This document shows, piece by piece, positions 4,761 through 64,000 of a DNA stretch of 64,000 bases. How positions within the stretch are numbered: position 1 is the first letter of the stretch; each line of letters begins with the position of its first letter. A program made the position numbers and the translations under genes. The notes beneath the pieces are model-generated. The model ran no database searches. It was not told the DNA's origin and saw only the letters and a program-made list of their open reading frames with translations. Origin of the DNA: Oerskovia jenensis (GTDB lineage Bacteria > Actinomycetota > Actinomycetes > Actinomycetales > Cellulomonadaceae); assembly GCF_016907235.1 (NCBI RefSeq), contig NZ_JAFBBO010000001.1, positions 3,534,001-3,598,000 of the forward strand, written 5' to 3'.

Positions 4761-4892
4761 TGGTGCTCCATCGACGACCCGGGCGAGCTCACGCTCGGCC
4801 TGGCGACCCTAGCAGCGGCTGCGGTGACGTGACCACCGCCACACCGTCGGTGCGTATCCATACCGCTCGGTCGGTGAGATAGTTGTCGCATC

Positions 4893-4982
4893 ATGTATTT
4901 CGACCTGAACGCGCCCACGCGCACCCACAGCACCGGACGGCACGGCTCGACGAGCTCCGCCCGCTGTTGTCGCTGTCTCTGA
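4893..4982 (+). CDS. Cysteine-rich leader peptide, putative attenuator uORF
   Basis: This 29-codon ORF starts ATG-TAT-TTC and ends with ARCCRCL before TGA at 4980. Three of its last five codons are Cys, and all three are TGT (4965, 4968, 4974), the rarer Cys codon in such GC-rich DNA. No ribosome-binding site is seen upstream, which would suit a leaderless transcript. Polycysteine leader ORFs that act as cysteine-responsive attenuators are established in mycobacteria, and similar small 'leader peptide' ORFs precede sulfur genes in other actinobacteria. Here the next gene on this strand is the solute-binding protein of an ABC importer, 308 bases downstream. Identification rests on composition and position; expression is not shown. 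Confidence 0.6.
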   Translation: MYFDLNAPTRTHSTGRHGSTSSARCCRCL

Positions 4983-4996
4983 ACAGCCGCTGACAG
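4963..4996 (+). promoter_or_regulatory. Competing hairpins over the Cys codons (attenuator candidate)
   Basis: GCTGTT (4963-4968) can pair with AACAGC (4982-4987), and CTGTC (4973-4977) with GACAG (4992-4996). The two pairings cross, so they exclude each other. The 5' arms contain the three Cys codons, so a ribosome paused there would decide which stem forms. This is a reading of the sequence by eye without energy calculation; the stems are short (5-6 bp). Confidence 0.35.
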
Positions 4997-5290
4997 GCGG
5001 CGTCCGTCGCGGGTGCTCCCCGACGTGACCGCCCCTCACGCACAGGTCTGATCCTTCCCCCGGGCTTTCCCGTCGCACGCCTAGTCGCGCCCTGCGCGGA
5101 TCGCAGCGCCCCGCACCGTCGGCCGCGCTCGTGACGCCCGAGCCCTCCCGGTCTCCGCCACCCGGCCCCCGCCATCCGTCGGAGGACCGCGCTCCACGAA
5201 CCCCTCACCACCTCGTCCCGCGACCCAGGTCGCGAGAGCGGGGTGGTCCCCGTGCAGCCCCGCTGCACCTCCTGGAACGGAAGAACCCCC
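4983..5290. other. Long untranslated leader between the Cys uORF and the ABC operon
   Basis: No gene is seen in these 308 bases. They hold two short hairpins: CGCGACC/GGTCGCG (5219-5225 with 5228-5234) and GTGCAG/CTGCAC (5252-5257 with 5263-5268). The second is followed by CACCTCCT (5266-5273), a perfect anti-Shine-Dalgarno-like stretch that could pair with GGAGG at 5181-5185. This could be part of a switch controlling the downstream gene. No known riboswitch core was recognised. Confidence 0.4.
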
Positions 5291-6793
5291 ATGAGAACCT
5301 TCAAGGCAGCCGCCGCGGTCCTGGCGACGACCCTCCTGCTCGCCGCGTGCGGCTCGGGTGGGTCCGGCAGCGCGAGCAGCAGCGCCGCGGCAGGCGCTGA
5401 CGCCGAGATCGTCATCGGCTCGACCAACGAGCCCACCGGACTGGTCCGCAACGTCGGCGGCAGCTCGGGCGTCTCGCAGACCATGACGCGCAACGTCTTC
5501 GAGGGCCTGACCTCGGTCGACGTCGACGGCGAGGTGGTCCCGACGCTCGCGAAGGACTGGGACGTGTCCGAGGACGGCCTCGTCTACACGTTCCACCTGC
5601 AGCCGGGCGTCACGTTCCACGACGGGTCCGCGCTGAGCGCGCAGGACGTCGTCTGGAGCATCTCGCAGACCATCGCACCCGAGTCCAAGAGCGCGCGCAA
5701 GAACGACCTGTCGGTCATCTCCGCGATCACGGCCCCCGACGACGCCACGGTGCAGCTCGACCTGTCGCGCCGCAGCCAGTCGCTGCCGTTCTACCTCGCG
5801 TCCGTCACGATCGTGCGGGACGGCGACACCGAGCTGACGAGCGACAACGGCACGGGCCCGTACCGTTTCGTCGAGTGGACGCAGGGCGACCACCTCACGA
5901 TCGAGCGCAACGACGACTACTGGGGTGAGCCCGCCAAGAACTCGGGCGTCACGTTCCGCTTCTTCCAGGACACGACCGCGCTCAACAACGCGCTCGCGAC
6001 CGGTGACCTCGACCTGGTCATCGCCGAGGACTCCCCGGACCAGCTCGTGCAGTTCGAGGGCAACGACGAGTTCACCATCACCGAGGGCACCTCGACGACC
6101 AAGCAGATCTGGGCCTTCAACGACCGCGTCGCGCCGTTCGACGACGTCCGCGTCCGCCAGGCCCTGTACACGGCGATCGACCGCGAGAAGATCCTCGACG
6201 CCGTGTGGGACGGACGCGGCCGGGTCATCGGCTCGATGGTCCCGCCGACCGACCCGTGGTTCGTCGACCAGGCCGACGTGCACTCCTACGACCCGCAGGC
6301 CGCGAAGGACCTGCTCGCGCAGGCCGGCGTGAGCGGCCTGAGCATCGCGGTCGACTACGTCGCGGGCGACCCGTCCGAGACCATCGCGCAGCTCCTCCAG
6401 GCGGACCTGCAGGCCGTGGGCGTCACGCTCACGCTCCACCCGATCGACGACGCGACCTGGTACCAGAAGGTCTACACGGACCACGACTTCCAGACCACGC
6501 TCATGGGGCACGTGAACCCGCGCGACGTCGTCTGGTACGCGAACCCCGACTTCTACTGGGGCTACGACAACAAGGACGTCCAGCAGTGGGTCGCGGACGC
6601 CGACCAGGCGGCCACGGCCGACGAGCAGACGGCCCTGCTGACCCAGGTCAACGAGACCATCGGGCAGGAGGCGGCGAGCGCCTGGCTGTACCTCGACCCG
6701 CAGATCCGGGTCGCGCGCGCCGAGATCACGGGCTTCCCGGTGAACCAGGTGACGGAGAGCTTCTACGTCGCCGACATCGTGCGGGAAGGCTGA
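5291..6793 (+). CDS. ABC transporter substrate-binding lipoprotein, family 5 (peptide/nickel type)
   Basis: The 500-residue product is a family 5 extracellular solute-binding protein. It has a lipoprotein signal with lipobox LLAAC around residues 15-19, followed by a Gly/Ser linker. The body shows the expected YTFHLQPGVTFHDGSALSAQDVVWS and NGTGPYRFVEWTQGDHLTIERN stretches. I chose ATG 5291 because the signal peptide begins there. It is the first of five genes in one operon (two permeases, two ATPases) with 10-base or overlapping junctions. The family imports peptides, nickel, glutathione or other compounds. The Cys-rich leader upstream suggests a sulfur-containing substrate, which is an inference. 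Confidence 0.9.
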   Translation: MRTFKAAAAVLATTLLLAACGSGGSGSASSSAAAGADAEIVIGSTNEPTGLVRNVGGSSGVSQTMTRNVFEGLTSVDVDGEVVPTLAKDWDVSEDGLVYTFHLQPGVTFHDGSALSAQDVVWSISQTIAPESKSARKNDLSVISAITAPDDATVQLDLSRRSQSLPFYLASVTIVRDGDTELTSDNGTGPYRFVEWTQGDHLTIERNDDYWGEPAKNSGVTFRFFQDTTALNNALATGDLDLVIAEDSPDQLVQFEGNDEFTITEGTSTTKQIWAFNDRVAPFDDVRVRQALYTAIDREKILDAVWDGRGRVIGSMVPPTDPWFVDQADVHSYDPQAAKDLLAQAGVSGLSIAVDYVAGDPSETIAQLLQADLQAVGVTLTLHPIDDATWYQKVYTDHDFQTTLMGHVNPRDVVWYANPDFYWGYDNKDVQQWVADADQAATADEQTALLTQVNETIGQEAASAWLYLDPQIRVARAEITGFPVNQVTESFYVADIVREG

Positions 6794-6803
6794 CCGAGCT
6801 CCC

Positions 6804-7772
6804 ATGTCCCGCTACCTCCTGACGCGCGTCGGCACGCTGCTGCTGTCGTTGGTCCTCGCGAGCGTCGTGGTCTTCGCCGTCCTCCGTTTCCTGCCGGGCG
6901 ACAGCGCGGGCACGTCGCTCGGCGTGGGCACCACGAGCGACCAGCTCGACCAGCTGCGTGCCGACCTCGGCACCGACCAGCCCCTGTGGACGCAGTACGG
7001 GCAGTGGGTGGCGGGGCTGTTCTCGGGCAGTGCGGGGACGTCGTTCGTCTCGCGCCTGCCCGTGGGGGAGCTGATCGCGAGCAAGCTCGCGATCACGCTG
7101 CCGCTGAGCCTCGCGGCCTTCGTGGTCTCGGTGCTCGTGTCGGTGCCGCTCGGGGTGGTCGCGGCGGTCAAGCGCCGCGGCGTCGTGGGGGTCACGGTCT
7201 CGGCCGTGTCGCAGCTGGGCGTCGCGGTGCCGGTCTTCTGGGTCGGCGTGATCCTGGTGTGGGTGTTCGCGCTCGAGGCGGGGGTCCTGCCCCCCGGCGG
7301 GTTCCCGCGCCAGGGCTGGGAGGACCCCGCGGCGGCCGTGCGGTCGCTCGTCCTGCCGGTGGCGACCGTGGCCATCGCGATGTCGTCGGTCATGGTGCGC
7401 TATGTGCGGTCGGCGACGCTCGACGTGCTGGACCAGGACTACGTCCGCACGGCCCGCTCGCTCGGCTACGGCCGGTGGCACGCCCTGGCGCGCCACGGTC
7501 TGCGCAACGGCGCGGTCCCGGTCGTCGCGATCCTCGGCATCGAGCTCGCGACGTCGTTGCTGGGGGCCGTGGTCGTGGAGAACGTCTTCGCGCTCCCGGG
7601 CCTCGGCACGCTCCTGGTGTCGTCTGTCGCGGGGCGCGACCTGCCGGTCGTGCAGGCCCTCGTCCTGGGCCTGACGGCCGTCGTCCTCGTCACGAACTTC
7701 CTGGTCGACCTCGCCCAGCGCGGCATCGACCCCCGGCTGCGCGCCGGTTCTGCCCTCGGAGGAGCCCGATGA
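6804..7772 (+). CDS. ABC transporter permease, DppB type
   Basis: First inner-membrane permease of the importer, 322 residues. The N-terminus SRYLLTRVGTLLLSLVLASV is typical of DppB/OppB proteins. Six hydrophobic segments are visible, and the EAA coupling loop (YVRTARSLGYGRWHALARHG) lies around residues 212-232, where it would dock to an ATPase. It begins 10 bases after the binding protein, and its stop overlaps the next start as ATGA at 7769. Confidence 0.92.
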   Translation: MSRYLLTRVGTLLLSLVLASVVVFAVLRFLPGDSAGTSLGVGTTSDQLDQLRADLGTDQPLWTQYGQWVAGLFSGSAGTSFVSRLPVGELIASKLAITLPLSLAAFVVSVLVSVPLGVVAAVKRRGVVGVTVSAVSQLGVAVPVFWVGVILVWVFALEAGVLPPGGFPRQGWEDPAAAVRSLVLPVATVAIAMSSVMVRYVRSATLDVLDQDYVRTARSLGYGRWHALARHGLRNGAVPVVAILGIELATSLLGAVVVENVFALPGLGTLLVSSVAGRDLPVVQALVLGLTAVVLVTNFLVDLAQRGIDPRLRAGSALGGAR

Positions 7773-8710
7773 GCATCGACCTGGGCGGGGAGATCCCCGT
7801 CGCCGAAGGATCCGGGCGGCTCGTCCCGGCGCGCGAGGAGGGCGTGGTCGCGCCGTCCCCCGGGGGCGGTGGTCCCAAGCGGGCCCGACGGCGGAGCGTG
7901 AGCCCGTCGTTCGTCGCGGGTCTGGTCATGGTCGGGTTGGTCGCCGTGGTCGGTGTCGTCGCGGTCTTCTGGACGCCGTACGACGTGAGCGCGGGGGCGG
8001 CCGGCACGGGCGGACGGCTCGAGGGACCGAGCGCCCAGTTCTGGGCGGGCACCGACCGCCTGGGACGCGACCTGCTGAGCCAGCTCATGGGCGGGGCCAC
8101 GGTCGCGATGACCGTGGCGATCGCCTCGGTCGTCATCGCAGGCGTGCTGGGCCTCGCGATCGGCGTGGTCGCGGCGGCGACGACGCGGTGGGCCGACGTC
8201 GCGCTCCTCAACGTCATCGACCTGATGATCGCGTTCCCGACCCTGCTGCTGGCCATGCTCATCGTGACGGTCCGCGGTGCGTCGCTGACCTCGGCGATCG
8301 TGGCGATCGGCATCTCCGGGGCTGCGGTGGTCGCGCGCGTCACGCGGGTCAACGCCGCGCGCGTGCTGCGCGAGGACTACGTGACGGCCGCGACGGCGTC
8401 GGGCACCGGATGGTGGGGGACGATCCTGCGCCACGTGCTGCCCAACGTGGCCCCCACCCTGCTGGTCCAGCTCATGCTGCTCGCGGGCGGCGCGATCCTC
8501 GCCGAGGCGTCGCTGTCCTACCTGGGGCTCGGCTCGCCGACCGCCCTGTCCTGGGGGCGGCTGCTCAGCGCCGCCCAGAAGTCCGTCGCGGTCCAGCCGC
8601 TCGGGGCGATCCTGCCCGGGCTGCTCATCGCGTGGACCGTCCTCGGCCTGAACCTGCTGGGCGACGGCATCCGTGAACGGACCGACCCGAGCCTGCGAGG
8701 CGACCGATGA
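7769..8710 (+). CDS. ABC transporter permease, DppC type
   Basis: Second permease, 313 residues. A hydrophilic N-terminal stretch of about 45 residues precedes the first membrane segment. The family pattern WAGTDRLGRDLLSQLMGGA follows it, and the EAA loop (LREDYVTAATASGTGWWGTI) is near residue 200. The start overlaps the previous gene by four bases (ATGA), and its own stop overlaps the next start in the same way, which indicates translational coupling. It pairs with the DppB-type subunit to form the channel. Confidence 0.92.
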   Translation: MSIDLGGEIPVAEGSGRLVPAREEGVVAPSPGGGGPKRARRRSVSPSFVAGLVMVGLVAVVGVVAVFWTPYDVSAGAAGTGGRLEGPSAQFWAGTDRLGRDLLSQLMGGATVAMTVAIASVVIAGVLGLAIGVVAAATTRWADVALLNVIDLMIAFPTLLLAMLIVTVRGASLTSAIVAIGISGAAVVARVTRVNAARVLREDYVTAATASGTGWWGTILRHVLPNVAPTLLVQLMLLAGGAILAEASLSYLGLGSPTALSWGRLLSAAQKSVAVQPLGAILPGLLIAWTVLGLNLLGDGIRERTDPSLRGDR

Positions 8711-9585
8711 CCCGCACGACCCCTCCCACGCCGAGCACCGCCGGCCCCGCGACGAGCACCACCGGGCTCGAGGTGCGGGACCTGACGGTGCGGACGTCGT
8801 CGGGCCGGGTGCTGCTCGACCGTGTGAGCTGGCGCGTCGCGCCCGGCGAGCGCCTGGGCGTGATCGGCGAGTCCGGCTCGGGCAAGTCGCTCACCGCGGC
8901 CGCGATCCTCGGGCTGCTGCCCGACGGCATGACCGCGACCGGGCAGGTCCTGCTCGACGGGACCGACCTGCTGAGCCTCGGCGAGGAGGCCCTGCGCCGC
9001 GTGCGCGGGGCGCGGATCGCCATGGTCTTCCAGGAGCCCTTCACGGCGCTCGACCCGCTCATGACGATCGGTCGGCAGATCGCCGGGCCGCTGCGCCTGC
9101 ACCGCAAGGTCTCGCGTGCCCGGGCCGCCGAGCTCGCCGCCGACCTGTGCCGCCTGGTGCGCCTCGACGACACCGAGCGCATCCTCGGGTCCTACCCGTG
9201 GCAGCTCTCGGGCGGACAGCGCCAGCGCGCGTGCCTCGCGATGGCGCTCGCGTGCGAGCCCGACGTGCTCATCGCCGACGAGCCCACCACGGCCCTCGAC
9301 GTGACCGTCCAGGCCGAGATCCTCGACCTGCTCGACGACCTCATCGAGCGCACCGGGACCGCCCTGGTGTTCGTGTCGCACGACCTGCCGGTCGTCGCCC
9401 GCGTCACGCGCGACCTCGTCGTCATGCGGCACGGGAAGGTCGTCGAGGCCACGAGCGTCGCTCGCGCCCTCGAGGCTCCCGAGGACCCGTACACCCGGTC
9501 GCTGCTCGCCGCCGCACGCGCCGTGACCCACCTGCCGACCCTGCACCCGACCACCCTGCACCCGACCACCCAGGAGGACCGATGA
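8707..9585 (+). CDS. ABC transporter ATP-binding protein, DppD type
   Basis: First ATPase of the importer, 292 residues. Walker A GESGSGKS is near residue 53, the signature LSGGQRQR near 167, Walker B VLIADEPTTALD near 187 and the switch His in VSHDLP near 220. All nucleotide-binding motifs are intact. The 3' end carries a short tandem repeat of CTGCACCCGACCACC (about two and a half units, 9526-9570), translated as a THLPTLHP-type tail. It lies between the DppC and DppF type genes with ATGA overlaps on both sides. Confidence 0.92.
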   Translation: MTRTTPPTPSTAGPATSTTGLEVRDLTVRTSSGRVLLDRVSWRVAPGERLGVIGESGSGKSLTAAAILGLLPDGMTATGQVLLDGTDLLSLGEEALRRVRGARIAMVFQEPFTALDPLMTIGRQIAGPLRLHRKVSRARAAELAADLCRLVRLDDTERILGSYPWQLSGGQRQRACLAMALACEPDVLIADEPTTALDVTVQAEILDLLDDLIERTGTALVFVSHDLPVVARVTRDLVVMRHGKVVEATSVARALEAPEDPYTRSLLAAARAVTHLPTLHPTTLHPTTQEDR

Positions 9586-10439
9586 GCGACCAGCCCGCCG
9601 AGGGTGACGCCCTGCTTGCCGGGAGTGACCGGCACCCTGCCGAGGGCGACCGGCACCCTGCCGAGGGTGACGCCTCACCGTTCGTCGCGCTCGACGGGGT
9701 GTGGCGCGAGTTCGGCGGATCGCGCCGCACGCCCCCGACGGCGGCGCTCGCGGGCGTCGACCTCGCGGTCCGTGCGGGCCGCAGCGTGGGGATCGTGGGG
9801 GAGTCGGGCGCGGGGAAGTCGACGCTCCTGCGCCTCCTGCTTGGGCTCGACAGCCCGACGCGCGGCACGGTCTCCTACCGCGGCGCTCCCCTGGACCGCC
9901 GGGACCGCGCGCTCATGCGGCGGTATCGCCGCGAGGTGCAGGTCGTCCTCCAGGACCCGCGCACGTCGCTCGACCCGCGCATGACCGTCGCGCGGATCGT
10001 CGCCGAGCCGCTGCGCTCGCTCAAGATCGGCGGCGACGTGTCGGCGCGCGTCGACGAGGTGCTGGGATGGGTCGGCCTCGACCCCGACGCCCGGACGAAG
10101 TACCCGGCCCAGTTCTCCGGTGGCCAGCGTCAGCGCATCGCGATCGCGCGGGCCCTCGCGCCCTCGCCGTCGGTCCTGGTGGGCGACGAGCCCGTGAGTG
10201 CGCTCGACGTGTCGGTGCGTGAGCAGGTCATGGACCTGCTGCGCGGGCTCCAGAGCGAGCTGGGGCTCACGCTCGTCCTGGTCAGCCACGACATGGCGAT
10301 CGTCGGGCAGCTCTGCGAGGAGACCGTCGTGCTGCGCGGGGGAGAGGTCGTCGAGTCCGGCCCCACGCGCGAGGTGCTGACCCGGCCCGCGGCCGCGTAC
10401 ACGCGCGAGCTGCTCGCGGCGGTGCCGACGCTGCCCTGA
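9582..10439 (+). CDS. ABC transporter ATP-binding protein, DppF type
   Basis: Second ATPase, 285 residues. Walker A GESGAGKSTL is near residue 72, the signature FSGGQRQR near 177 and Walker B VLVGDEPVSALD near 198. The first 30 residues are unusual: they contain repeats of the type DRHPAEGD encoded by a 21-base tandem repeat (about 9626-9670), and they precede the ATPase fold, which begins near FVALDGVW. It is the last gene of the operon, and a 7-bp hairpin follows the stop at 10449-10468. Confidence 0.9.
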   Translation: MSDQPAEGDALLAGSDRHPAEGDRHPAEGDASPFVALDGVWREFGGSRRTPPTAALAGVDLAVRAGRSVGIVGESGAGKSTLLRLLLGLDSPTRGTVSYRGAPLDRRDRALMRRYRREVQVVLQDPRTSLDPRMTVARIVAEPLRSLKIGGDVSARVDEVLGWVGLDPDARTKYPAQFSGGQRQRIAIARALAPSPSVLVGDEPVSALDVSVREQVMDLLRGLQSELGLTLVLVSHDMAIVGQLCEETVVLRGGEVVESGPTREVLTRPAAAYTRELLAAVPTLP

Positions 10440-43871: not shown

Positions 43872-45278
43872 ATGAAATTCGCACACCACATCTCTGACCT
43901 CGTCGGCGGGACACCCCTGGTCCGGCTCGGATCGGTGACCGACGGCCTCTCCGCGACGATCCTCGCCAAGGTCGAGTACCTCAACCCCGGCGGCTCCGTG
44001 AAGGACCGCATCGCGCTCAAGATGATCGAGGAGGCCGAGTCCTCCGGGGAGCTCGCGCCCGGCGGCACGATCGTCGAACCCACCTCGGGGAACACCGGGG
44101 TCGGGCTCGCGCTCGTGGCCCAGCGCAAGGGGTACGACTGCGTGTTCGTCTGCCCCGACAAGGTGAGCCAGGACAAGCGAGACGTCCTGACCGCCTACGG
44201 GGCTCGCGTCGTCGTGACTCCCACGGCCGTGGCCCCCGACCATCCCGACTCCTACTACTCGGTCTCGGACCGCCTCGTCGCCGAGATCCCCGGGGCCTGG
44301 AAGCCCAACCAGTACGCCAACGCGAACGGCCCCGCGTCGCACTACGAGAGCACGGGCCCCGAGATCTGGGCCGACACCGACGGTCGCGTCACGCACCTCG
44401 TGGCCGGGGTGGGCACGGGCGGCACCATCACCGGGACCGGCCGGTACCTCAAGGACGTGTCGGCCTCACGGGCGGCCGAGGCCGGTGGGCGGGTGCACGT
44501 CGTGGGCGCCGACCCCGCCGGGTCCGTCTACTCGGGTGGCGACGGCCGCCCCTACCTGGTCGAGGGCGTGGGCGAGGACTTCTGGCCCGCCGCGTACGAC
44601 CCGACCGTGCCCGACGAGATCATCGCCGTGAGCGACGCCGACTCGTTCGAGATGACCCGGCGCCTCGCCCGCGAGGAGGGCCTGCTCGTGGGCGGCTCGT
44701 GCGGCATGGCGGTCGTCGCAGCGCTGCGACTGGCCCGCCGCCTCCAGGACGAGGACCCCGAGGCCGCGGCGAAGGCCGTGATCGTCGTGATCCTGCCCGA
44801 CGGCGGTCGCGGCTACCTGTCCAAGATCTTCAACGACTCCTGGATGCGGTCCTACGGGTTCCTCGACGCCGAGGAGGGCGTGACCGCGGGCGACATGCTG
44901 CGCTCCAAGAGCGGGCAGCTCCCCAGCCTCGTCCACACCCACCCGGGCGAGACCGTGCGCGACGCGATCGAGATCCTGCGCGAGTACGGCGTCTCGCAGA
45001 TGCCCGTCGTCGGGGCCGAGCCGCCCGTCAAGATCGGCGAGGTCGCCGGGGCCGTGAGCGAGCGGACGCTGCTCGACGCGGTGTTCTCCGGGCGGGCATC
45101 TCTCGCCGACCGCGTGGACAAGCACATGGAGCCGCGGTTCCCGCTCATCGGGGCGGGCGAGGGCGTCGCGGCCATCCGCGCGGCGCTGCACGACGCCGAC
45201 GCGCTGCTCGTGATCGACGACGGCGACCCGGTCGGGGTGCTCACGCGCCACGACCTGTTGGGCTTCCTGGCGCACTGA
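43872..45278 (+). CDS. cbs: Cystathionine beta-synthase
   Basis: The enzyme condenses homocysteine and serine to cystathionine, the first step of reverse transsulfuration towards cysteine. The 468-residue product has the PLP fold with Lys in NPGGSVKDRIALKM (near 43), SGNTGVGLALVAQ, and GTGGTITGTGRYL. Two CBS motifs occupy the C-terminus (about 345-468: VRDAIEILREYGVSQMPVVG and LLVIDDGDPVGVLTRHDLLG). The length and the CBS pair favour cystathionine beta-synthase over cysteine synthase, which lacks them. A cystathionine gamma-synthase-type enzyme lies at 60178. It ends before an 18-bp hairpin. Confidence 0.93.
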   Translation: MKFAHHISDLVGGTPLVRLGSVTDGLSATILAKVEYLNPGGSVKDRIALKMIEEAESSGELAPGGTIVEPTSGNTGVGLALVAQRKGYDCVFVCPDKVSQDKRDVLTAYGARVVVTPTAVAPDHPDSYYSVSDRLVAEIPGAWKPNQYANANGPASHYESTGPEIWADTDGRVTHLVAGVGTGGTITGTGRYLKDVSASRAAEAGGRVHVVGADPAGSVYSGGDGRPYLVEGVGEDFWPAAYDPTVPDEIIAVSDADSFEMTRRLAREEGLLVGGSCGMAVVAALRLARRLQDEDPEAAAKAVIVVILPDGGRGYLSKIFNDSWMRSYGFLDAEEGVTAGDMLRSKSGQLPSLVHTHPGETVRDAIEILREYGVSQMPVVGAEPPVKIGEVAGAVSERTLLDAVFSGRASLADRVDKHMEPRFPLIGAGEGVAAIRAALHDADALLVIDDGDPVGVLTRHDLLGFLAH

Positions 45279-62798: not shown

Positions 62799-64000
62799 GC
62801 CTCGCTCGACCCGACGTGACGCTCGACAGCATCCGCGACGCCGCCCGCATGCTCGACGGCGTCGCCTACCGCACCCCGGTCCAGACGAGCCGCGCGATCA
62901 GCCAGGTCGTGGGCGTGCCCGTGGTGCTCAAGTGCGAGAACCTCCAGCGCGCCGGGTCGTTCAAGATCCGCGGAGCGTACATCCGTATGGCGCGGCTCTC
63001 GGCCGAGGAGAAGGCGCGCGGCGTCGTCGCGGCCAGCGCCGGGAACCACGCCCAGGGGGTCGCGTTCGCGGCGGGCCTGCTCGGGATCCAGGCCGTCGTC
63101 TACATGCCGGTCGACGCCGCGCTGCCCAAGGTCGCCGCGACCCGCGAGTACGGGGCCGAGGTGCGCCTGGTGGGCGTCGACGTCGACGAGACGCTCGCGG
63201 CCGCCAAGGCCGAGGCCGAGCGCACGGGCGCGGTGTTCATCCACCCGTTCGACCACCCCGACGTCGTCGCGGGCCAGGGCACGATCGCGCTCGAGATCCT
63301 CGAGCAGGTGCCCGACGTCCGCACGGTCGTCATGCCGCTCGGCGGCGGTGGGCTGGTCGCGGGGGTCGCGGCGGCCATGGCCGAGGTCGCGCCGCACGTC
63401 AAGGTCGTGGGGGTCCAGGCCGCGCGCGCGGCGGCCTACCCGGGCTCGCTCGCTGCAGGCGTCCCGACGACGTCGCTCGCCCGCTCGACCATGGCCGACG
63501 GCATCGCGGTGGGCACCCCGGGCCCGGTGCCGTTCTCGATCGTGTCCGCGCTCGGTGCCGAGGTCCGCACCGTGACCGAGGACGAGCTCTCACGCGCGCT
63601 CCTGATGATCACCGAGCGGGCCAAGCTCGTCGTCGAGCCGGCGGGGGCCGCGGGGGTCGCGGCGCTGCTCGCCGACCCGACCGGGTGGGAGGGCCCGGTC
63701 GTGGTGATCCTGTCCGGGGGCAACATCGACCCCCTGGTGCTGCTGCGGGTGCTGCGGCACGGGCTCGCGGCCGCGGGCCGGTACATGCAGATGCAGGTGC
63801 TGCTCGACGACCGGCCCGGTGCTCTGGCACAGATGCTCGACGTCATCGCGGGCGTCGGCGGCTCGATCATGCACATCGACCACGACCGCACCGACGTGCA
63901 CCTCGCGATCGGTGAGGCGTGGGTACGCATGCAGGTCGAGACCAAGGGGCAGGAGCACTGCGAGGCGCTCGTCGCGCAGCTCCGCGGCGCGGGGTACCGG
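62795..64000 (+). CDS. ilvA: Threonine ammonia-lyase (3' end outside window)
   Basis: The enzyme deaminates threonine to 2-oxobutanoate, the first step to isoleucine. The frame is open from GTG 62795 to the last base, 402 codons with no stop. The PLP Lys is in RAGSFKIRGAYIRM (near 57), followed by VAASAGNHAQGVAFAAG and LGGGGLVAGVAAAM. An ACT-like regulatory domain begins near 330 (YMQMQVLLDDRPGALAQML). The missing part should be very short. The single ACT domain and the length of about 405 residues fit the actinobacterial form, which may be of biosynthetic or catabolic type. Confidence 0.93.
   Translation, partial: MSLARPDVTLDSIRDAARMLDGVAYRTPVQTSRAISQVVGVPVVLKCENLQRAGSFKIRGAYIRMARLSAEEKARGVVAASAGNHAQGVAFAAGLLGIQAVVYMPVDAALPKVAATREYGAEVRLVGVDVDETLAAAKAEAERTGAVFIHPFDHPDVVAGQGTIALEILEQVPDVRTVVMPLGGGGLVAGVAAAMAEVAPHVKVVGVQAARAAAYPGSLAAGVPTTSLARSTMADGIAVGTPGPVPFSIVSALGAEVRTVTEDELSRALLMITERAKLVVEPAGAAGVAALLADPTGWEGPVVVILSGGNIDPLVLLRVLRHGLAAAGRYMQMQVLLDDRPGALAQMLDVIAGVGGSIMHIDHDRTDVHLAIGEAWVRMQVETKGQEHCEALVAQLRGAGYR

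Follow-up and report, generated by a model that had tools for sequence, protein, structure and literature searches.

A conserved leader ORF ending in cysteine codons ahead of an Opp/Dpp-type importer operon of Oerskovia jenensis: a probable cysteine-sensing attenuator in actinobacteria

The window analysed here, a stretch of 64,000 nucleotides from Oerskovia jenensis (contig NZ_JAFBBO010000001.1, positions 3,534,001–3,598,000; genome size 4.45 Mb), carried an ABC importer operon on its forward strand, preceded on the same strand by a short leader ORF at 4893–4982. The first gene of the operon (5291–6793) encoded a family-5 substrate-binding lipoprotein of 500 aa (Pfam SBP_bac_5, 281 bits), of which an AlphaFold2 model was obtained with a pLDDT of 87. 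It was followed by genes for two permeases at 6804–7772 (BPD_transp_1 and BPD_transp_1_N) and 7769–8710 (BPD_transp_1), and for two ATPases at 8707–9585 (ABC_tran) and 9582–10439 (ABC_tran, with a weak oligo_HPY match below the cut-off). A binding protein, two permeases and two ATPases encoded in one operon constitute the gene set of an Opp/Dpp-type (family 5) importer.

The leader ORF started with an ATG at 4893, ended with a stop codon at 4980–4982 and encoded the peptide MYFDLNAPTRTHSTGRHGSTSSARCCRCL. A reading made from the sequence alone (hereafter the sequence-only reading) had described it as an ORF of 29 codons ending in C-C-R-C-L with three rare TGT codons, and the sequence and codon counts bore this out: the cysteine codons at 4965, 4968 and 4974 were TGT in all three cases, and TGT was rare in the genome, with 4 TGT vs. 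30 TGC in 11 larger ORFs. At its 3′ end the ORF read UGU-UGU-CGC-UGU-CUC-UGA, which placed a run of cysteine codons at the end of a short ORF ahead of the first gene of the operon, as is characteristic of the attenuator class. Among ORFs of 7–50 codons starting with ATG or GTG, only three had at least three cysteines within their last six residues in 134 kb of the O. jenensis genome, both strands included: the leader ORF itself, an ORF located ahead of a sulfite-reductase-family operon, and a third lying antisense to a large ORF (50–2779). Upstream of the leader ORF, a putative −10-like element (GATAGT or TAGTTG, 4878–4885, forward strand) was located in the conserved stretch 4850–4892, with 6 nt between the end of GATAGT and ATC-ATG. 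This spacing would suit a 5′ leader of 0 or 3 nt, with transcription starting at the ATG or at 4890 (5′-AUCAUG). No sigma-70 consensus promoter was found at the locus, and an Rfam scan of the window returned no family there and one tRNA elsewhere.

The distance of 308 nt between the stop codon of the ORF and the ATG at 5291 was as given in the sequence-only reading. This leader (4983–5290, forward strand) was C-rich and G-poor with a C/G ratio of 1.63, and its composition together with a terminator scan made it a candidate Rho-loading region. It began with a conserved post-stop block (4983–5032), whose predicted stems could pair with the cysteine codons or with each other, and it contained a conserved hairpin (GUGCAGCCCCGCUGCAC, 5252–5268), recognised from alignment and folding, just 5′ of the ribosome-binding site. 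In an alignment of six Oerskovia genomes, the proportion of invariant bases was 88% at 4850–4892, 83% at 4893–4940, 98% at 4941–4982, 97% at 4983–5012 and 65% at 5013–5052, dropped to 21–52% with indels at 5053–5236, and was 83% at 5237–5290. Judged by this alignment, the locus consists of a conserved front module (putative promoter, ORF and post-stop stretch) and a conserved rear module (predicted hairpin and ribosome-binding site).

Upon searching 39 relatives, the leader ORF was found in all six Oerskovia genomes (O. jenensis included) with an importer orthologue of at least 95% identity, the binding proteins within the genus being 95–98% identical. A seventh Oerskovia genome (G003) had no such importer orthologue (best match 31%). 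Three orthologues from three other genera of the family (59–62% identity) were preceded by ORFs encoding differing peptides that ended in CCCSC, CCRCC and CCCCCC, and no comparable leader was found at orthologues of 42% identity and below (L010 on). For a broader survey, a profile of nine binding proteins was run against named genomes and the best 80 of 228 relatives were kept, so that more distant importers fell outside its scope. Upstream regions were scanned for an ATG- or GTG-initiated ORF of 7–50 codons with CC within its last 14 residues and a −10-like hexamer 5–11 nt upstream. Where 250 nt or more of upstream sequence was available, the pattern matched at 20 of 75 loci; among 643 control windows taken from the same loci, each 2 kb in length, it matched in 2. 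A first, stricter scan (TANNNT 4–9 nt upstream) had given 9 of 75 loci vs. 0 of 1053 windows and had missed the Oerskovia leader itself. Because the pattern was widened after leaders had been seen, and was then rerun on fresh control windows from the same loci, the controls weigh more than the hit rate. Five loci with too short an upstream sequence (L036, L042, L045, L061 and L103) were excluded from the count, L052 (343 nt upstream) was counted as a miss but marked as short on the tree described below, and a match at −1389 of L065 was set aside as it looked like a chance occurrence. A −10-like element at similar spacing was present slightly upstream of most leaders of other genera; a Sanguibacter locus (L035, …GCCCRCSR) had a clear cysteine run despite failing the −10 pattern used. 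Altogether, leaders were found in Oerskovia, Sanguibacter, Cellulomonas, Cellulosimicrobium, Scrofimicrobium, Jonesia, Timonella, Dactylosporangium, Planosporangium, Micromonospora, another member of the Micromonosporaceae and Actinopolymorpha, representing four orders (Micrococcales, Actinomycetales, Micromonosporales and Propionibacteriales).

The leaders were linked to one clade of importers. In a tree of 82 binding proteins, of a quick kind and midpoint-rooted, all 22 entries with a leader fell inside one clade of 30 (SH-aLRT 98), and the tree required three changes of state. The remaining members of this clade comprised four without a cysteine-run leader (L039, L049, L050 and L051) and four with too little upstream sequence, while none of the other 52 entries was scored with a leader, two of them having too little upstream sequence. 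In Cellulomonas telluris (L039), a short ORF in the place of the leader, read by eye, ended in ASCRG (AGT TGT CGC GGC TGA), and its cysteine run seems to have been worn down to a single cysteine. The gene directly ahead of the importer in the other 52 entries encoded a DUF1684 protein in 42 cases and an OsmC protein in five (e.g., L062:5206–5961, L056:5261–5959 and L077:5425–5859), and in the leader-bearing Micromonosporaceae and Actinopolymorpha entries a DUF1684 gene was located downstream of the importer. The neighbourhoods of two further DUF1684 genes in the O. jenensis genome were scanned and showed no cysteine leader. One archaeal DUF1684 member has been placed in a thiol-relay group, according to the accessible part of a single paper.

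The ORF ahead of the sulfite-reductase-family operon, MTTAAHLLLVTARHESTACARNSFCCCC, ended in FCCCC and was located 143 nt ahead of a NirA/sulfite-reductase-family gene (L119:8163–8249; G000:C1 about 1293162). It was of the leaderless type, starting 7 nt after TAGCGT. The operon included CysD and CysN genes with scores over the cut-offs and two PAPS-reductase-type matches; the NirA/sulfite-reductase-family gene itself fell short of the curated cut-offs set for reductase models, which counts against an attenuator reading. This leader was kept in all six congeners (L139–L144). Among seven further strong orthologues, a cysteine-run ORF was present in L146, L147 and L150 and doubtful in L151, and L145, L148 and L149 had no cysteine leader, so that 3 of 13 strong orthologues were without one, a result that also weighs against that reading. 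The presence of such a leader on a sulfite-reductase-family/cysDN operon indicates that the Oerskovia lineage uses cysteine leaders for cysteine supply. No leaderless-type cysteine leader was found at the seven other family-5 genes of the genome or at its nine PALP (cysteine-synthase-like) loci; the two PALP genes (cysteine synthase/threonine dehydratase superfamily) in the window, at 43890–44798 and 62867–63718, likewise had none. A second family-5 importer operon was preceded by a Shine-Dalgarno-led ORF ending in PCCR (L135:1307–1396; G000:C1 about 4175806), 206 nt before its binding-protein gene. The body of this peptide diverged between genomes, with endings of PCCR or LCCR, and the codons TGT TGT CGC TGA were kept in the three genomes with an orthologue of at least 97% identity (O. 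jenensis, L159 and L160); the ORF was absent at a 78% orthologue (L161) and at the more distant ones scanned. The binding protein of this operon scored best with TIGR04028, below the cut-off.

We consider it very probable that the ORF at 4893–4982 is a cysteine-sensing leader of the importer mRNA, i.e., a ribosome-stalling attenuator of the mycobacterial kind, and that the importer is switched on when Cys-tRNA is scarce. The core of the sequence-only reading, in which a cysteine attenuator is linked to an importer of family 5, is strongly supported by the conserved ORF and its cysteine run, the link to a single importer clade and the second leader on the cysDN operon; the check named in that reading, conservation in relatives, came out in its favour, with both the ORF and the cysteine run retained within Oerskovia and in other genera. 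Stalling, the direction in which the importer is regulated and the off-switch are modelled here on the known systems of this kind. Transcription would start at the AUG or 3 nt before it, and ribosomes would load on a leaderless or nearly leaderless message. With ample Cys-tRNA, the ribosome would pass UGU-UGU-CGC-UGU and leave at 4982, after which the ribosome-free, C-rich leader of approximately 300 nt would stay closed or be terminated and the importer would remain off. With scarce Cys-tRNA, the ribosome would stall on the UGU codons and keep the codon stretch from pairing with a conserved segment of approximately 50 nt past the stop, allowing expression of the importer operon. Such stall-controlled expression would make the importer part of a cysteine-starvation response, alongside the sulfite-reductase-family/cysDN operon. 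Leader lengths of 122–356 nt across loci and the dissimilar appearance of the six predicted structures compared count against the attenuator reading. So do the four clade members with no cysteine-run leader, the failure to find an Rfam family, a terminator or a recognised sulfur gene at the locus, and the outcome of the masking described below.

For the off-switch, termination by Rho was slightly preferred over masking of the ribosome-binding site, and was rated close to an even possibility. The C-rich leader would load Rho unless the stalled ribosome altered the folding or accessibility of the post-stop block. No intrinsic terminator was found, with zero terminator-like sites at 4800–5400 and, accordingly, no trp-type hairpin with a U-tract. 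The C/G ratio of the leader was matched or exceeded in 0.08% of 1260 equal-length control windows on both strands, and the median C/G ratio of 21 leaders was 1.63 (1.11–1.90), as compared with 1.10 (0.69–2.08) in the regions upstream of 28 family-5 genes that lacked such a leader. The contrast held when each group was represented by a single leader (12 leaders, p = 3e-4). Base composition is nevertheless weak evidence and by itself no proof; the ratio was unremarkable in L058, L048 and L046, and single controls reached 2.08. For the cys leaders of actinobacteria, Rho-dependent attenuation was put forward in 2005, in a paper whose accessible text rates its own prediction as weak (PMC1262725). 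The way in which a stalled ribosome would stop Rho at this locus is a guess.

A possible route, to which we give a lower probability, is attenuation of translation, in which the stalled ribosome would prevent formation of a structure that hides the ribosome-binding site of the importer. In the M. smegmatis system studied by Canestrari in 2020, a structure reportedly hides the ribosome-binding site. Translational attenuation is also what the accessible portions of two papers report for M. smegmatis polycysteine leaders (PMC9031893 and PMC13236596), and the conservation of the hairpin at 5252–5268 and of the ribosome-binding region, together with a predicted fold of 5215–5295 that was more stable than shuffled sequences (z −2.6), is consistent with it. 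Against it, the central part of the leader is free to drift, and in the folding model a ribosome masking the cysteine codons left the predicted access to the ribosome-binding site of this leader at 0.45–0.47 vs. 0.48 unmasked. Of 22 leaders, only L048 and the sulfite-reductase-family leader had their highest value with the mask placed over the cysteine codons. The competing stems over the cysteine codons that the sequence-only reading described could be drawn, and the fold of 4955–5035 was more stable than its shuffles (z −2.1), but masking predicted no release of the ribosome-binding site in this leader.

The codons, rather than the peptide, appear to be what matters. Peptide bodies differed between genera while the terminal CC run was kept, and the spacing of the cysteines varied between groups (CCRCL, CCCRR, CCR, CCCCCC and RICCC). 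The cysteine codons of 21 leaders, of which related ones are not independent, amounted to 61 TGT vs. 14 TGC; for 19 of these loci the transporter ORFs were also counted, and there the figures were 10 TGT vs. 78 TGC. A rare, wobble-read codon within the sensing run would fit a stall sensor. A leader peptide that is merely co-transcribed with the importer and acts in trans as a small cysteine-rich product, e.g., in metal or thiol binding, would account for the retention of CCRC among Oerskovia, but is very improbable given how little is shared outside the terminal cysteine run, the varying cysteine spacing and the preference for TGT, which points to the codons and not to the product. That the ORF arose by chance in a high-GC upstream region, a concern as long as the proposal rested on a single sequence, is refuted by its conservation across genera and by the control counts.

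Leaders with cysteine runs are known from other actinobacteria. As far as the accessible text of the 2005 study goes (Seliverstov 2005, PMC1262725), they were predicted upstream of the cys operons in Mycobacterium and Propionibacterium acnes and of cbs in Bifidobacterium longum; like the present leaders, they have runs of cysteine codons near the stop, no terminator and a suggested Rho-dependent termination, but their targets are biosynthetic and include no importer. In M. smegmatis, a cysteine leader upstream of the cysA2 locus was seen by ribosome profiling, according to the part consulted of that report (Shell 2015, PMC4633059), and attenuation by such a leader was tested in 2020 (Canestrari, as described in the accessible part of PMC9031893). 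To judge from the available portions of these sources, the mycobacterial polycysteine leaderless ORFs share with the O. jenensis leader a position at the start of the operon, 3′ cysteine codons, a leaderless-type start (putative here), a proposed response to cysteine and conservation in relatives. On the same basis, the present leaders differ in that the target is an Opp/Dpp-type importer instead of cysA2 or cysteine-metabolic genes, in their non-mycobacterial hosts, in the C-rich leader of approximately 300 nt in Oerskovia, and in that no release of the ribosome-binding site was predicted. No report of a cysteine leader before an Opp/Dpp-type importer was found in the literature searched, among the matches listed and in the portions of them that were accessible.

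Homology gave little indication of what is transported. The binding protein passed none of the NCBIfam substrate models, all scores being far below the cut-offs; models of the glutathione importer protein GsiB (129 bits vs. a cut-off of 594) and the nickel importer protein NikA (148 vs. 393 and 149 vs. 600 bits) were rejected. GsiABCD resembles the importer in its family-5 binding protein and permease architecture, but the binding protein is far under the GsiB cut-off. A sequence search against solved structures ranked AgaA and Listeria CtaP first, with CtaP (5isu, 141 bits) second-best; the fold match to CtaP had a Z score of 36.0, level with many others, at approximately 24% identity over the fold. 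All 50 entries listed for the AlphaFold2 model were family-5 and related binding proteins matching at Z 33–38, including binders of glutathione, nickel, dipeptides, opines and sialic acid, and because they match about equally the fold is uninformative on the ligand. CtaP (Lmo0135) is a family-5 protein that is needed for growth at low cysteine and is encoded behind a predicted SAM riboswitch; the accessible text describes it as annotated as peptide-binding, yet tied to cysteine uptake and sulfur control (PMC10269559). The present protein shares its family, but CtaP is controlled by a different RNA, has only the low identity given above and is one of many equal fold matches. No sulfur-metabolism genes were recognised in the importer operon or beside it in the window. 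The sequence-only reading had predicted uptake of cysteine-containing peptides, glutathione or another sulfur source. We infer a sulfur substrate from the leader alone, and the importer most likely carries a sulfur-containing nutrient.

What seems new is the Opp/Dpp-type importer as a target, together with the clade-wide conservation outside mycobacteria; leaders with cysteine runs as such were already known. The results would extend ribosome-based cysteine sensing beyond the cysteine-metabolic operons described to date, adding an importer of the peptide type and many non-mycobacterial actinobacteria. For transporters of a family in which sequence does not reveal the substrate, a leader specific for a single amino acid offers a hint of function. 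Being devoid of an intrinsic terminator, this set of leaders is also good material to separate control by Rho from control through the ribosome-binding site. A more far-reaching view, which we regard as rather unlikely in its entirety, is that the single orthologous Opp/Dpp importer clade spanning four orders is dedicated to the uptake of an organic sulfur compound, a role that has so far gone unrecognised, and that its leader stalls on cysteine codons and acts via Rho and not via the ribosome-binding site. The compound could be a cysteine peptide, cystine, glutathione or an N-acetylcysteine conjugate derived from mycothiol. Members of the sister clade lack the leader and have a DUF1684 or OsmC gene before the importer, which would suggest that a thiol-handling protein is coupled to the same uptake.

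A further leader with cysteines near its end came from the literature. The metNIQ leader of Streptomyces lividans, MSTTSDRTPATEATTTPGARCMCRRMCAF, which was published as methionine-dependent (PMC8079986, Table 4, from the accessible part of that paper), has three cysteines near its end and might also be cysteine-sensing.
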